From NCBI GenBank assembly GCA_013791885.1, contig VMSZ01000020.1, positions 1-64,000 on the forward strand: a DNA stretch of 64,000 bases, in the 5' to 3' direction. This stretch comes from Sulfurimonas sp. (lineage in GTDB: Bacteria; Campylobacterota; Campylobacteria; Campylobacterales; Sulfurimonadaceae). Below, piece by piece: positions 34,961 through 45,664 of this stretch. Every line of letters begins with the position of its first letter. Position 1 is the first letter of the stretch. Made by a program: the position numbers and the translations under genes. The notes under the pieces were generated by a model. It saw nothing but the letters and a program-made list of their open reading frames with translations, was not told where the DNA came from and did not search any database.

Positions 34961-36070
34961 ATGAAATATCTTCTCCTTAGCCTCCTCTTTTTTTTCAATC
35001 TTTTTGCAAATGACAAAGCCCATACCTTTGCGCCTAGTGAAGATTGTAAGGCGTGTCATCCCCTTATTTACGATGAGTTTAAAACCTCCATGCATGCCAA
35101 TGCCCTGCCTCAAAATGATGCTATCTTAAACGCAGTCTGGGCAAAACATCCAAAACATCTCAAAGCGGAACGTTTTGAGTGCGGCAAATGCCATACTCCC
35201 GCAGCCGACAATTTAAACGCGATGTTAAGCAAAGACCAAAAAGCACTTCCCGATGCAAATAATCCTACGCACCAAGAAGCCATAAGCTGTGCATATTGTC
35301 ACCGCATAAAATCCATAGAACACCATGCCCAAAGCAACACAAATATTATGACAAATACTGAGAAAAACTACTACGGTACACTCAAAGAGCACATGGAATC
35401 GCCTTATCATGGGATTGTAAGTGAAGGCAATGAGCATATGCAAAACGGTAATGTCTGTATCGGATGCCACTCTCACCGCATGAACAATCACAATCTCAAT
35501 GTCTGTTCTACCAATATTGACAACCAAATGGACGGAGCAAATTGTGTGAGCTGTCATATGCAAAAAGTAGCGGGAAGCGTTTCAAATCTACATGAGCGCA
35601 GCGAACATAGCTTTCACGGTTTTGCAGGCTCTCACGCACACTCTGATATGCTGAGTAAATATGTAGATGTCACTTTTGAAGCGCAAGAAAAAGGCTTTTC
35701 CATCGACATAAACAACACAACATCTCATGCTCTGCTTTTACATCCGCTTCGCATGGCAGTTCTCAAAGTAAGTGTGACAAGAGACGCCAAACAAACGCAG
35801 CTTAAAGATGAAGTTTTTGTCCGCGTGCTTGGCAAAGACTCTAAACCCGCAATGCCGTGGATTGCAGACACTACACTCAAAGACACAATGATTCAGGGAA
35901 GTGAAAAACGCAGAGTTACTTATGATTTTGTACTGCAAAAAGGAGACAAAATAGATGCAACTCTCGGCTGGTTTTTAGTCAATCCGCAAGCCATAGAAAA
36001 ACTCAATCTTCAAGATGACGCGGTTGCAAACAAATTTCATATCTTTAAAGAGATGCACTTCACGTTTTGA
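34961..36070 (+). CDS. periplasmic pentahaem cytochrome c
   Basis: A 369-residue protein with signal MKYLLLSLLFFFNLFAND. Five CXXCH sites are visible: CKACH (29-33), CGKCH, CAYCH, CIGCH and CVSCH, the last at about residue 198. The rest is a haem-free beta-rich C-terminal domain (about 230-369). The spacing resembles cytochrome c554/NrfB-like multihaem proteins (pfam13435 type), but the exact subclass is not recognised. It probably shuttles electrons between quinol oxidation and a terminal reductase or sulfur enzyme. No such enzyme is adjacent. Confidence 0.88.
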   Translation: MKYLLLSLLFFFNLFANDKAHTFAPSEDCKACHPLIYDEFKTSMHANALPQNDAILNAVWAKHPKHLKAERFECGKCHTPAADNLNAMLSKDQKALPDANNPTHQEAISCAYCHRIKSIEHHAQSNTNIMTNTEKNYYGTLKEHMESPYHGIVSEGNEHMQNGNVCIGCHSHRMNNHNLNVCSTNIDNQMDGANCVSCHMQKVAGSVSNLHERSEHSFHGFAGSHAHSDMLSKYVDVTFEAQEKGFSIDINNTTSHALLLHPLRMAVLKVSVTRDAKQTQLKDEVFVRVLGKDSKPAMPWIADTTLKDTMIQGSEKRRVTYDFVLQKGDKIDATLGWFLVNPQAIEKLNLQDDAVANKFHIFKEMHFTF

Positions 36071-40072: not shown

Positions 40073-40375
40073 CTACTTTTTAAGTTCAACAATATATTTT
40101 GCGAATTTCTCCGTATCTTCAGGTGCAAGATTTTTTAACTTTGTTCTATGCATACCAACATAATTTTTAGATAAAGAAGTAGAACCATCCAAAATCTTTT
40201 TAAGTCGCATTGAGAGTTCTTCCTCACTCAAAGAAGAAAGTTTTGGAGAACTTTTTATCGCTACAAGTTCACCCTGTTTTCCATGACACACTACACAGTG
40301 CTTATATTGGTCCTCACTTTGTATAGCAAACACGGCAGTAGAGAGTATTAACGCCCCAATTATAATTTTTTTCAT
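40073..40375 (-). CDS. periplasmic monohaem cytochrome c
   Basis: A 100-residue class I cytochrome with signal MKKIIIGALILSTAVFA and haem site CVVCH about residue 27. The frame is open 16 codons earlier, but the ATG at 40375 follows AGGATGG and starts a clean signal, so it is used. Distal Met is probably in YVGMHRTKL. It converges on the cyclase gene and is divergent from the haem-porin genes (about 170 nt), so it is a candidate soluble electron partner for them. Confidence 0.85.
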   Translation of the reverse strand: MKKIIIGALILSTAVFAIQSEDQYKHCVVCHGKQGELVAIKSSPKLSSLSEEELSMRLKKILDGSTSLSKNYVGMHRTKLKNLAPEDTEKFAKYIVELKK

Positions 40376-40542
40376 CCTATCCATCCTTTTTATTAATTTT
40401 TTTAAGTTGAACGGCACACTCATACTTAAAAATACATTTAAATTATAACTTTTAAGAACAATTAATATTTCACCCTTTTGTGTGATTTTTTTTATTTTTT
40501 TATCTAATATAATACTTGATATATCTTTTAAGAGGGGTTATT

Positions 40543-41904
40543 ATGAAAAAGATTCATTCACTCATAGTGCCGGGGGCTTTAGCTTTTTTAGCACTCGCAC
40601 AGAGTTTACATGCGGTTCCTGCGTTTGCTCGGCAGACAGGCTTGGAATGTTTTGCGTGTCATACCGGCAGTCAATCAAATCTCAATGCTTTAGGGCGCAA
40701 GTTTGCACAATCGTCGTATATGATGGTAAAAGAGGATACCTCTGAGTCGCTTCTATCAGGTGAGAAAATGGGCGTAGATACAGATACAGTGTTAAACGCA
40801 TCTATAATGCTCAAAGCAAGACTCGAAAAAGGTTATGACGTCGTCAATGGAAAAGGTGAAGTTGTAGAAACACACGACGAGGAAGAGATAGGAGCCAACA
40901 GAGGTGTCTATGAAATGTTTAAAACTTCTACGGCGCATTTAGCCGGCAAGGTTGTTAGCAATGTGGGTACGCTCTTAGAAGTTCGTGAAAAAGAAGGAAG
41001 AGCGCTTTTGGGCGGAAAATTTATTTCATCAATGAAAGTAGATGACGCTTCTTATGCCGGCGTCACTCTCTATTCAACAGATAATTACGGACCGTTTTCG
41101 GGTATGGAGACTTACAACACGGGTCTTTATAAACCTTTGCGTCAATTTGAAAACCATAAGCTTACAAACGCAGCCCAGGCTGCTGATTTAGGTACAGGTT
41201 CTGCAACGGGTATACAAGCTTACTATGGCGGTGAGAGCTTCTTTGCAACGATAGGAGCTTACATTCCTCTGCATCACAGTGATGAAATCAAAGCAAGTAA
41301 CTCTTTGATTCCTTTTGCTCGTCTGGCGTATGAGCAAAAAATTGGAGATTTAAATCTTATTGTAGGTGCTTACGGACTCAAAGGAAAAGCGACAGCCGAT
41401 AACACGATATGGGATACTTCCCTCTCGGGACTTATCCCTAGTACAAATGTAGAAGTAGAAAGAGAAGCGTATGGATTTGATATGCAGCTTGAGGGTGAAA
41501 TGTTTTCCATTCCTTCAATGCTTACTGCTATAGTAGTTGTTAAAAGTAAAACGACTCTTGATAATCCGGAGCTTATGAACTACACACCGCCAGGTCCGGC
41601 ATATCTAGATATTTACGGAGAGCCTTATGATGGAGAAAACAGCGCATATTCTGTTTCTTATGAATTTTATCCGACAGCTGCTCTTGGTCTGAAACTGGCA
41701 TATTTACACGCAGATGATGAAGGTCCGCATACTTATGAACCGGACAAAATAGATGCGAAAGATAAAGATGCGTACAGCATAGGTTTTGACTACTCTTACA
41801 GACAAAACATTGCGTTTACACTTGAGTATTCATTCGTAAAACCGGGCAGAGAAGACATAGAAGACTACTCTGACCTGCTTGCAGTTGTAACTGCATCATT
41901 CTAA
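40543..41904 (+). CDS. fused cytochrome-porin, Cyc2-like outer-membrane protein (first copy)
   Basis: A 453-residue protein with a signal peptide ending about ALAQSLHAVPAF and then ARQTGLECFACHTGS-NLNALGRKF, an N-terminal haem-binding CXXCH followed by the LN-G-F pattern typical of Cyc2 and related haem-porins. The remainder is alternating beta-strand sequence with aromatic girdles, ending in VTASF, the terminal-Phe signal for BAM insertion. Start ATG 40543 is used (AAGAGGGG upstream) rather than the earlier in-frame ATG. It is followed after 15 nt by a paralogue. Role inferred: electron transfer across the outer membrane. Confidence 0.8.
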   Translation: MKKIHSLIVPGALAFLALAQSLHAVPAFARQTGLECFACHTGSQSNLNALGRKFAQSSYMMVKEDTSESLLSGEKMGVDTDTVLNASIMLKARLEKGYDVVNGKGEVVETHDEEEIGANRGVYEMFKTSTAHLAGKVVSNVGTLLEVREKEGRALLGGKFISSMKVDDASYAGVTLYSTDNYGPFSGMETYNTGLYKPLRQFENHKLTNAAQAADLGTGSATGIQAYYGGESFFATIGAYIPLHHSDEIKASNSLIPFARLAYEQKIGDLNLIVGAYGLKGKATADNTIWDTSLSGLIPSTNVEVEREAYGFDMQLEGEMFSIPSMLTAIVVVKSKTTLDNPELMNYTPPGPAYLDIYGEPYDGENSAYSVSYEFYPTAALGLKLAYLHADDEGPHTYEPDKIDAKDKDAYSIGFDYSYRQNIAFTLEYSFVKPGREDIEDYSDLLAVVTASF

Positions 41905-41919
41905 ACAAAGGGGTAAGCA

Positions 41920-43233
41920 ATGAAACCATTTACAAAAAAATTACTTTTAGTTTCGAGTGCTTTGCTCTGCGCGCTTCCTGAGTCGGCAAGTGCTTTAGCT
42001 ATGTTCTCAAGCCAAACGGGCAAAAGCTGTATGGCTTGTCATACGCAAAATATGCCAAAACTAAATAGCTACGGTAAAGAGTTCGCACTCTCAGGGTATA
42101 CGATTTACGATGAGAGTAAAACTGCAAAGCCGCTTATAGTTGGGAGTGATGTTCCTCTAGGTCTTCCATCGACACTCAGCGTATCTGCCGTGCTTAAAGC
42201 GAGCTATGTGAAAACGACGCAGGAAGAAGACGCAACGACGGGTGATTTGGTAGGTACTGAGCGAGGTGAACTGCAAGGACTTAGCGCTTCGGGAATCTAC
42301 TTTGGAGGCCGTGTTGCAGATAATTTTGGCGCACTGGTGTCACTCAAAGGCAACGATGATAAGAGAACTGACATTGTCTATAATGCAAAACTTCTTCTCG
42401 CTTACTCTGCGATGGGCGGATATACAGGAATGTCTCTTATCTCTACTGAAACAAACGGTCTTTTCTCTGGAATGGAGCTGCACAACACAGGACTTAATAC
42501 TCCCGTAAAAATGTTTGAAAATGCTTACGCAACAAACGCAGCTCAGGCAACGGGTGTCGGTAACGGCCCAGCAACTGCTCTTCAAGCCTACTATGGAAAT
42601 GCAAATCTTTTTGTGAGTGCGGGAATCGGCATACCTGCGCAAAACTCTGAAGGACTTGATGCAGGTAAAAGTCTTCTTCCATTTTATAGAATTTCATACA
42701 GCCAGCCAATCGGTGACTGGAACTTTATGGTGGGTGCTTATGCCATCAAAGGCGATGTAGAAGCGAGTGATATGAGTCTCAATGGCGAACTTGTCTCAAA
42801 CCGCGCGGAACTTGTCAAGATTCACAAAGAGGCACACGGATTTGACTTTGAAATGAGCGGCAAACTTTTTGATATGAGCGCCATGGCTACAGTCAATCAT
42901 GTAGTGAGAAATACAGTTGATGTTGATCCGGCTGCCGTACTTACTGCATACAACCTTCAAAGTACGGACAATAAAGGCACTTCTGTTGAACTTCAGATAA
43001 ATCCGATAGACCCGCTAGGGCTCAAAGTGGGATATCTAAGTTATGCAAACAACGATGATGCAGCGACAAATCAAAAGTTTATTAAAAACTATGATTATGA
43101 AGCTTATACGGTGGGTGCGAGCTACAATGTACTTGAAAACTTTTCTGTTGGCATCGATGTAAGCCGTTACTATCCGGAGTCTGATATCAAAAGTTACGAT
43201 GATATCTATGTGAACGCTGCTTTAGCATTCTAA
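41920..43233 (+). CDS. fused cytochrome-porin, Cyc2-like outer-membrane protein (second copy)
   Basis: A 437-residue paralogue of the preceding gene. The signal (LLLVSSALLCALPESASALA) is followed by SSQTGKSCMACHTQNMPKLN and YGKEFALSGY, again a single CXXCH with the PKLN-G-F-GY pattern. The barrel part has matching landmarks in both copies (FSGMELHNTGL, NAAQATGVGNGPATALQAYYG) and ends in ALAF. AAAGGGGTAAG is the ribosome site. Both genes lie in one operon. The two barrels may have diverged for different donors or acceptors. Confidence 0.8.
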   Translation: MKPFTKKLLLVSSALLCALPESASALAMFSSQTGKSCMACHTQNMPKLNSYGKEFALSGYTIYDESKTAKPLIVGSDVPLGLPSTLSVSAVLKASYVKTTQEEDATTGDLVGTERGELQGLSASGIYFGGRVADNFGALVSLKGNDDKRTDIVYNAKLLLAYSAMGGYTGMSLISTETNGLFSGMELHNTGLNTPVKMFENAYATNAAQATGVGNGPATALQAYYGNANLFVSAGIGIPAQNSEGLDAGKSLLPFYRISYSQPIGDWNFMVGAYAIKGDVEASDMSLNGELVSNRAELVKIHKEAHGFDFEMSGKLFDMSAMATVNHVVRNTVDVDPAAVLTAYNLQSTDNKGTSVELQINPIDPLGLKVGYLSYANNDDAATNQKFIKNYDYEAYTVGASYNVLENFSVGIDVSRYYPESDIKSYDDIYVNAALAF

Positions 43234-43317: not shown

Positions 43318-43740
43318 ATGAAAAAGTTACTTTTAAGTGTTTCGACACTCCTATTATTAAATGTTGCTGCGTTTGGTGCAGACCAAGATATGACGCAAGA
43401 TCGTGATCAAACAAGACTTCAGACTAAAGACCAAACTAAGTTGGGTGATGGTGATCAAACGCAGACGCGCACTCAAACGCAACAGAGACTCAAAGACGGC
43501 AGTGGTGAGGGTAAACAAATACAAAACCAAAACCAATACCAGCACCAAGAACAGTACAAAGCTGTTCCTCCTGTAGGCGGTGCTAAAAACAGCTACAAAC
43601 AAGGTATCGAAAGCGGTAGCGGTTATGTAGGCGGCGAAGGTTCAGGAGTAAAAGGTCCTAAAGCTAAGAATGCCAATCCTGGCAACTCCGGTTCTATGAA
43701 AGGCGGCGGTATGCAAGGCGGCGGTGGCGGCAAACGCTAG
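43318..43740 (+). CDS. secreted Gln/Thr/Asp-rich repeat protein
   Basis: A 140-residue exported protein with signal KLLLSVSTLLLLNVAAFGA. Residues 21-65 are short imperfect repeats around DQTRLQT, DQTKLGD, DQTQTRTQTQQ, followed by a Gln/Asn/Tyr-rich section (QNQNQYQHQEQYK) and a Gly/Lys-rich tail (SMKGGGMQGGGGGKR). It looks disordered or adhesive; no family was recognised. It follows the haem-porin pair by 84 nt and may be co-transcribed with it. A strong hairpin terminator follows. Confidence 0.75.
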   Translation: MKKLLLSVSTLLLLNVAAFGADQDMTQDRDQTRLQTKDQTKLGDGDQTQTRTQTQQRLKDGSGEGKQIQNQNQYQHQEQYKAVPPVGGAKNSYKQGIESGSGYVGGEGSGVKGPKAKNANPGNSGSMKGGGMQGGGGGKR

Positions 43741-43903: not shown

Positions 43904-44467
43904 ATGGATACTTCAAAAAGCCGTAGAGGTTTTATAAAAATTATGGGTATTGGAGCATTAGTTACGGCTACTTCTTCATTCGCTGCAAGAAGAACAACAA
44001 AAACAGTAACATTAACTGATGAACAAAAAGATACACTTTTCTTCATCTTCCAAGAAGAAAAAGTGGCCAGAGATGTTTATATTACCCTTGGCAAGCTTTA
44101 TCCTGAGGAGAGCACTTTTGCAAGTATTCAACTCTCAGAACAGGAGCACATATTATCTGCGCAAGTACTTTGTGAACGTTATGGCGTCGATACGTCAGAT
44201 GTAAACCTCTCTCTTGAAGATGATTTTATAGGACAGTTTGAACTTCATGTTATGCAAGAGCTTTACAACCAGTGTATTGAACTTGGTCAAGTATCACTTT
44301 TAGAAGCTCTCAAAGTTGGCAGACTTATAGAAGTCACAGATATTGATGACTTGGAAAGAGCAGCCGAAGGTATGCCAAGCGATGTTGTAAATACTTTCGA
44401 AAACCTAAAAAATGGAAGTCTCAATCACCTAGCTGCGTTTGAAGCGGCAATTTCAAGAGAATCATAA
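43904..44467 (+). CDS. Tat-exported DUF2202 ferritin-like protein
   Basis: A 187-residue protein with twin-arginine signal SRRGFIKIMGIGALVTATSSFA. The mature part is a DUF2202 four-helix bundle: LFFIFQEEKVARDVYITLG (EEK-A-DVY, carboxylate ligands), FASIQLSEQEHILSAQVLCERYGV (ExxH), LYNQCIELG and LEAL-VGRLIEVTDIDDLE. Ferritin-like proteins bind a di-metal centre; Tat export suggests folding with metal inside the cell. Its position between the haem-porins and a regulator suggests a metal-redox role, which is inference. Confidence 0.85.
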   Translation: MDTSKSRRGFIKIMGIGALVTATSSFAARRTTKTVTLTDEQKDTLFFIFQEEKVARDVYITLGKLYPEESTFASIQLSEQEHILSAQVLCERYGVDTSDVNLSLEDDFIGQFELHVMQELYNQCIELGQVSLLEALKVGRLIEVTDIDDLERAAEGMPSDVVNTFENLKNGSLNHLAAFEAAISRES

Positions 44468-44893: not shown

Positions 44894-45664
44894 TTAATAG
44901 TTGCCCATCATCTTGTTCTGCAACTCCATTTTAGAGCTAACGCCATATTTGCTGAAGATATTTTTTGTGTGCGTTTTGACCGTATTAATAGTCACTTTTA
45001 ACTCACTTGCAATCTCCTTATACGGTCTCCCATGCAGAATTCTAAACACTATCTGTTTTTCTTTGTCCGTCAAAATATCCATTTTATTGTCAATATGCAC
45101 ACATTTTGAATGAAAAGTACTAGTGTCAATATTATAAAATGGTCGAATTAAACTCTCAAACATAGTGCTAATCTCTGCCATATTTGTAACATTAGGCATA
45201 TCGTCATGGGTAAATATATAAATAACAAAACCCATTTTTCTATTATTTTTACTTCGAACCGGAAAAATATATGCCTCACTAAAGTTCAAGGCTTCTTCAA
45301 ACTCAAGAGCTTTTGCCTGAGTAAAAGTACCGTCAAAAATTTTATGAAGTGAATCTATAACTAAGTACTCTCTCGTTCCCTCATAATGACTTTGATAATA
45401 TCTTTTAAATTTATTTAAAAACATGTGCTGTGAAGTCAGTTTGTATTCACGCAGTAAAGCTGCAAAACGTCTCTTCTCTTCCATCACCATTTCAATACTT
45501 ACAAAGTCCTCATCACCTACACATATTGCAATGATTCCCGCACCACTTTGTTCCTTAAAAGTCTTCGTCTCTTTTCTGAGTACAGCCTTAACGCTGTGTC
45601 CCTCAAGTATATGATTCTGAATCATTACAGTTTTTTCTAACAGTTCTATATGACTCATATTCAT
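44894..45664 (-). CDS. LuxR-family transcription regulator
   Basis: A 256-residue DNA-binding protein. The C-terminal helix-turn-helix (about 195-250) is LTDKEKQIVFRILHGRPYKEIASELKVTINTVKTHTKNIF, a GerE/LuxR signature. The N-terminal ~180 residues form a sensor-like region of unrecognised type with no receiver Asp or PAS-defining motif. GGGGAACG precedes the ATG. Its location next to the haem-porin/DUF2202 block makes it a candidate regulator of that block. Confidence 0.85.
   Translation of the reverse strand: MNMSHIELLEKTVMIQNHILEGHSVKAVLRKETKTFKEQSGAGIIAICVGDEDFVSIEMVMEEKRRFAALLREYKLTSQHMFLNKFKRYYQSHYEGTREYLVIDSLHKIFDGTFTQAKALEFEEALNFSEAYIFPVRSKNNRKMGFVIYIFTHDDMPNVTNMAEISTMFESLIRPFYNIDTSTFHSKCVHIDNKMDILTDKEKQIVFRILHGRPYKEIASELKVTINTVKTHTKNIFSKYGVSSKMELQNKMMGNY

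Follow-up and report, generated by a model that had tools for sequence, protein, structure and literature searches.

A conserved gene module around two old Cyc2 paralogues in Sulfurimonas, candidates for outer-membrane electron uptake

Two adjacent genes in a Sulfurimonas genome each appear to encode a cytochrome fused to an outer-membrane porin. They raise the question of which family the proteins belong to, why there are two of them and what electrons they might carry. The window, a stretch of 64,000 nucleotides, belongs to a genome of 2.52 Mb (99.99% complete); the pair lies on contig 29 and these two genes, termed A and B below, are the only copies.

Table 1. Genes of the pair and of the surrounding module in the window
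Feature	Position	Strand	Description
Cyc2-A	40543..41904	+	453 aa, ATG; signal peptide, CXXCH at residues 36–40, predicted 16-strand barrel, C-terminal Phe
Cyc2-B	41920..43233	+	437 aa, ATG; signal peptide, CXXCH at residues 37–41, predicted 16-strand barrel, C-terminal Phe
Divergent secreted monohaem cytochrome c	40073..40423	-	Pfam Cytochrom_C; the actual start probably lies downstream of 40423
Small secreted low-complexity protein	43318..43740	+	Gly/Gln/Lys-rich; kept after B in 5/6 species
DUF2202 protein	43904..44467	+	Twin-Arg (Tat-like) signal; related to solved MJ0754 (E 1.9e-20)
Protein of ~140–150 aa	44439..44891	+	No family match; kept in 6/6 modules
LuxR-type (GerE HTH) regulator	44894..45664	-	Convergent; kept in 6/6 modules

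Family and predicted fold

The initial annotation described two adjacent open reading frames, each with a signal peptide, a single CXXCH site and a terminal phenylalanine: the description is accurate and its coordinates are exact to the base. The two genes share a strand and are separated by 15 bp, each is preceded by a Shine-Dalgarno-like GGGG, and the short gap indicates that B is probably co-transcribed with A. Both N-termini are hydrophobic signals ending near an alanine, assigned by eye rather than by a predictor. The putative haem ligands are C36-C39-H40 in A and C37-C40-H41 in B, all among the first 41 residues, and are embedded in the common context F-(A/S)-x-Q-T-G-x-x-C-x-x-C-H...LN--G-(R/K)-x-F. 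An ARQTG-C--CH motif had been attributed to both proteins; the overall context is indeed present in each, but B of the window reads MFSSQTG, with SSQTG in the place of ARQTG. The arginine is absent only there, being kept in five of the six B proteins (that of genome G016 included) and in 49/49 other cluster-1 rows. A and B are paralogues, as had been proposed (BLASTP E 9e-71, 33% identity), and are 33–36% identical across their full length.

Searches of Pfam, NCBIfam and PDB sequences yielded no family for A, and B gave no real match in Pfam and NCBIfam, which reflects a lack of models and not a lack of kin. A profile led by A, run against 84,980 named species genomes, retrieved three records of the same genus first, followed by matches of 24–34% identity, many of them full length, in Sideroxydans, Gallionella, Ferrigenium straubiae, Ghiorsea, Mariprofundus, Chlorobium, lucinid symbionts, Thiobacillus, Nitrospirota and others. 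Such organisms are the taxa of Cyc2 cluster 1 (PMC7029218, PMC12442345). A maximum likelihood tree of 79 proteins (LG+C20) places A, B and the single-gene types ii, iii and v of the genus, together with nearly all the proteins from iron-oxidiser taxa, in a clade of 70 rows (support 100/100, branch 1.92) that stands apart from the FARQTG-C--CHTVFPELTPFGR type. This clade of neutrophilic iron oxidisers is recognised as cluster 1 by its member organisms, the tree containing neither the Cyc2-PV1 sequence itself nor those of Sideroxydans lithotrophicus ES-1. Within it A (100/99), B (100/100) and A+B (100/99) each form a clade, and type ii is sister to A+B (100/99). Zetaproteobacterial rows come next, a placement that has no real support (86/49).

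Structures were predicted with AlphaFold2 from input alignments of 69 (A) and 49 (B) sequences. The models (pLDDT 80 and pTM 0.82 for A, 84 and 0.84 for B) both display short helices around the haem site, at about residues 27–57, followed by 16 strands, as counted manually from DSSP output; the first loops contain additional short strands. The nearest solved folds are OprB (4gey), OprO (4rjw) and OprP (2o4v), with Z of 21.8–23.1. Keffer et al. (2021) predicted Cyc2-PV1 to be a 16-strand porin with a haem plug and likewise named OprO and OprP (PMC8406198). The 16-strand barrel for which structure prediction had been suggested as a check is thus supported by the strand count in both models, as an OprO/OprP-like porin behind the haem domain. 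MtrAB, MtoAB and PioAB, in which the gene of a 26-strand porin stands beside that of a decahaem cytochrome, are organized differently: A and B have 16 predicted strands and one haem site each, and the cytochrome encoded next to them is monohaem.

Full-length homology, position in the tree and the 16-strand models together support A and B as members of Cyc2 cluster 1, beyond "Cyc2-like". The identity that the initial annotation had read from motif and architecture is therefore sustained, and the similarity to haem-porins, whose absence it had regarded as a refutation, is clear. With Cyc2-PV1 of Mariprofundus ferrooxydans and the proteins of Gallionellaceae and Chlorobium the pair has in common the signal, one CXXCH, the ARQTG-C--CH...LN--GR-F context, homology over the full length, the predicted barrel and the clade of taxa. 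It differs from them in consisting of two old, diverged paralogues per genome, in certain residues that are otherwise nearly invariant and in its gene neighbours.

Duplication, selection and residue changes

The view that such a conduit is not usually described in Campylobacterota was overstated, as cluster-1 Cyc2 was reported there in 2025 (PMC12442345). That dating study places the epsilonproteobacterial sequences within those of Zetaproteobacteria and explains them by transfer; A, B and type ii also adjoin zetaproteobacterial rows, if weakly. Its text, which was compared here rather than its sequences, differs in containing neither a tandem pair nor a gene module. In 397 good genomes from across Campylobacterota, the profile has a match of E ≤ 1e-10 in 16, of which ten align with most of the profile and the others mainly with its N-terminus: Cyc2 is hence rare in the phylum. 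A single clade of all Campylobacterota cluster-1 proteins is rejected (AU p 0.0006, for a group named after the tree had been seen), so that Cyc2 was probably acquired at least twice. Type v proteins of two further genomes of the genus, G192 and G188 (L162, L163), group on the Gallionellaceae side, possibly as another acquisition.

The pair occurs in six of the 135 genomes of the genus (G000, G016, G032, G056, G072 and G075), others of which have sister-type single proteins. Between the window and the five other species the pair is 53–77% identical. Relative to the nearest species, dN is 0.15 and dS 1.44 for A, and 0.16 and 1.38 for B, a dN/dS of ~0.1 at a dS near saturation: both genes are under strong purifying selection. 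Retention in five other species under such selection argues that the pair is not a chance occurrence. As all A proteins form one clade, all B proteins another and A+B a third, a single old duplication preceded the split of the six species. Elsewhere in the genus, the Cyc2-like gene at G047:C12:23048-24378 (L050) is interrupted by stops (TAA, TGA).

A comparison of the A and B proteins, six of each, with 49 other cluster-1 proteins reveals changes specific to each class. The basic residue, Lys or Arg, that follows a conserved phenylalanine (F54, hence position 55 in A) is lost in 12/12, being Ala in all six A and Ala or Ser in all six B. P45 is lost in every A. All B proteins carry E146S and Q315E, where the 49 others have E/D and Q, respectively, without exception. 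Judging from the alternation of polar residues, sites 146 and 315 should face the pore, and B may have had a carboxylate shifted from one strand to another. Such changes at near-invariant sites imply that the redox partner or the substrate could have shifted. Taken together with purifying selection on both genes, the class-specific residues mark A and B as two distinct proteins that have both been kept, and not as a recent redundant copy.

Adjacent cyc2 genes are known from S. lithotrophicus ES-1, which has three (Slit_0263-0265), 37–50% identical, preceded by regulators and differing in their responses to Fe(II) (PMC8788666). The gaps there measure 437–604 bp, in contrast to the 15 bp of the Sulfurimonas pair, and the two duplications appear to be separate, given that A+B form a clade of their own in a tree that lacks the ES-1 sequences. 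In view of the 2025 report and of ES-1, neither a Cyc2 in Campylobacterota nor a tandem cyc2 is new by itself. What is new is that A and B stem from an old duplication and have both persisted in six species of the genus, along with the class-specific residue changes and the conserved module described below. The literature on Cyc2 in Sulfurimonas and Sulfuricurvum, covered with few subscription papers, contained no report of the A/B pair.

The type ii proteins (L044-L049, L148, L153), despite being the sister clade, differ from A and B in that they are encoded by a single gene, retain the basic residue after the phenylalanine and have no module partners nearby in the six loci compared. In G005 and G065 (L044, L047) the type ii gene is flanked by ammonium-transporter/PII-like genes on one side and a gyrA-like gene on the other, and the vicinity contains no cytochrome gene. 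A single type iii gene (L051:6212-13011, G011) has close neighbours that appear from their sequence to encode a multicopper oxidase with a twin-arginine signal and a P-type ATPase for metals, a hint that the role of this branch may be linked to metals.

A conserved gene module

The finding extends beyond two genes, as the pair is part of a conserved module of about seven (Table 1). The genes for cytochrome c, the 150-aa protein and the LuxR-type regulator stand beside the pair in all six species, and that for the DUF2202 protein in five, the sixth copy being located elsewhere in G032. Close DUF2202 copies (76–83% identity) are present in 6/6 pair genomes and 2/129 others, figures to be read as counts outside any formal test because the species are related. 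The fold of DUF2202 and MJ0754 is one that we take to be ferritin-like; among the papers listed by a literature search, none was on MJ0754. Close copies of the cytochrome c (43–63% identity) are confined to the six A+B genomes and G182, and this protein is likely to be the periplasmic electron partner of the pair. In G032 and G075 the module occupies another chromosomal site, which indicates that the linkage is not due to a mere lack of rearrangement. The open reading frame after B in G016 was considered as a broken version of the small secreted protein and rejected, as the correct frame is intact.

A decayed module, in effect a natural near-deletion, is found at L061:7525-8621 (Sulfurimonas sp. 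STC_53, probably G182). Here the cytochrome c gene is intact and A is cut to 206 aa, diverging after GPFSG; B, the small protein, the DUF2202 protein, the 150-aa protein and the regulator are all missing from the interval that separates the helicase gene from valS. A tblastn search for the module partners at the cyc2 loci of known iron oxidisers returned none, with weak generic cytochrome c matches only. The window also encodes, at 34961-36070 on the forward strand, a secreted protein with five counted CXXCH and matches to the Cytochrome_C554 and C7 families, for which those A+B regions of other species that were compared contain no counterpart.

Proposed electron uptake and alternative roles

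On present evidence the pair is probably a two-component outer-membrane electron-uptake system, with Fe(II) as the probable donor, that works through diverged cluster-1 Cyc2 paralogues. Both proteins would reside in the outer membrane as 16-strand porins, with the N-terminal single-haem domain placed where the pore faces the periplasm. A small donor from outside the cell, Fe(II) or another, would enter the pore and reduce the haem by one electron. From there the electron would reach the periplasmic cytochrome c, whose gene is divergent from the pair, and would then go either to a cbb3 oxidase or backward, to supply reducing power. Handling of the resulting iron would probably fall to the small secreted protein and the DUF2202 ferritin-family protein, and control of the set probably to the LuxR-type protein. 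The genome does contain a haem-copper oxidase locus consistent with the cbb3 type (a CcoN-like gene of 498 aa, a next gene of 230 aa, then a cytochrome), which provides its only COX1-family match. For the Cyc2 of Mariprofundus, oxidation of Fe(II) has been demonstrated (PMC8406198; cited so in PMC8788666).

The homology of the family, the tree, the models, the six-species module, the ferritin-family neighbour, the cbb3-like locus and a co-occurrence at Sandtown, reported below, are all consistent with Fe(II). Against it stand the ~25% identity to the Cyc2 of iron oxidisers, the changes in A and B at near-invariant sites, module partners that do not accompany cyc2 in iron oxidisers and a genus whose known metabolism is mainly the oxidation of sulfur and hydrogen. 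Residue changes in both classes and a sulfur-oxidising host would also suit electron uptake from a different donor, such as an iron sulfide mineral, Mn(II), an electrode-like surface or a reduced sulfur compound, and the family is found in many organisms not known as iron oxidisers (PMC5566968). The characterised Cyc2 homologues nevertheless oxidise Fe(II), and a single haem in a narrow pore favours a small soluble donor (PMC8406198), which renders a different donor unlikely.

Oxidation of Fe(II) at the surface might also serve to keep iron out of the cell rather than to gain energy, the ferritin-family protein acting as a periplasmic sink. Such detoxification has already been raised for Cyc2 elsewhere (PMC10734525) and would agree with the nearby DUF2202 gene; a dedicated cytochrome c, conserved next to the pair, speaks instead for use of the electrons and makes a purely protective role quite improbable. 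Outward flow, by which the pair would export electrons to Mn(IV) or Fe(III) oxides, is very improbable: Sulfurimonas marisnigri reduces Mn(IV) with sulfide (PMC9122950, PMC11748539), but characterised Cyc2 proteins serve Fe(II) oxidation and the module includes no multihaem surface cytochrome.

Within the favoured reading, that of electron uptake, a more specific proposal is offered tentatively. The paralogues might have split their roles, for example by using different donors or potentials or by forming a hetero-oligomer, and together with the dedicated cytochrome c and the secreted ferritin-family protein might constitute an iron-oxidation island specific to Campylobacterota, in bacteria regarded as users of sulfur and hydrogen.

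The findings suggest that some sulfur-oxidising members of the genus may also be able to feed on iron; an abundant plume Sulfurimonas species is explicitly reported to be without Cyc2 (PMC10066037). Should Fe(II) prove to be oxidised by the pair, one of the most abundant sulfur-oxidising genera would include some iron oxidisers as well, a metabolism rarely credited to its members, and the module would be a marker for the trait. The named partners (cytochrome c, DUF2202 protein and regulator) and the natural near-deletion genome make the function directly testable. A literature search for the Sandtown site together with Sideroxydans found no paper. One pair-bearing genome and the remnant-bearing genome both derive from Sandtown samples, which are also the source of Sideroxydans and Gallionella genomes.
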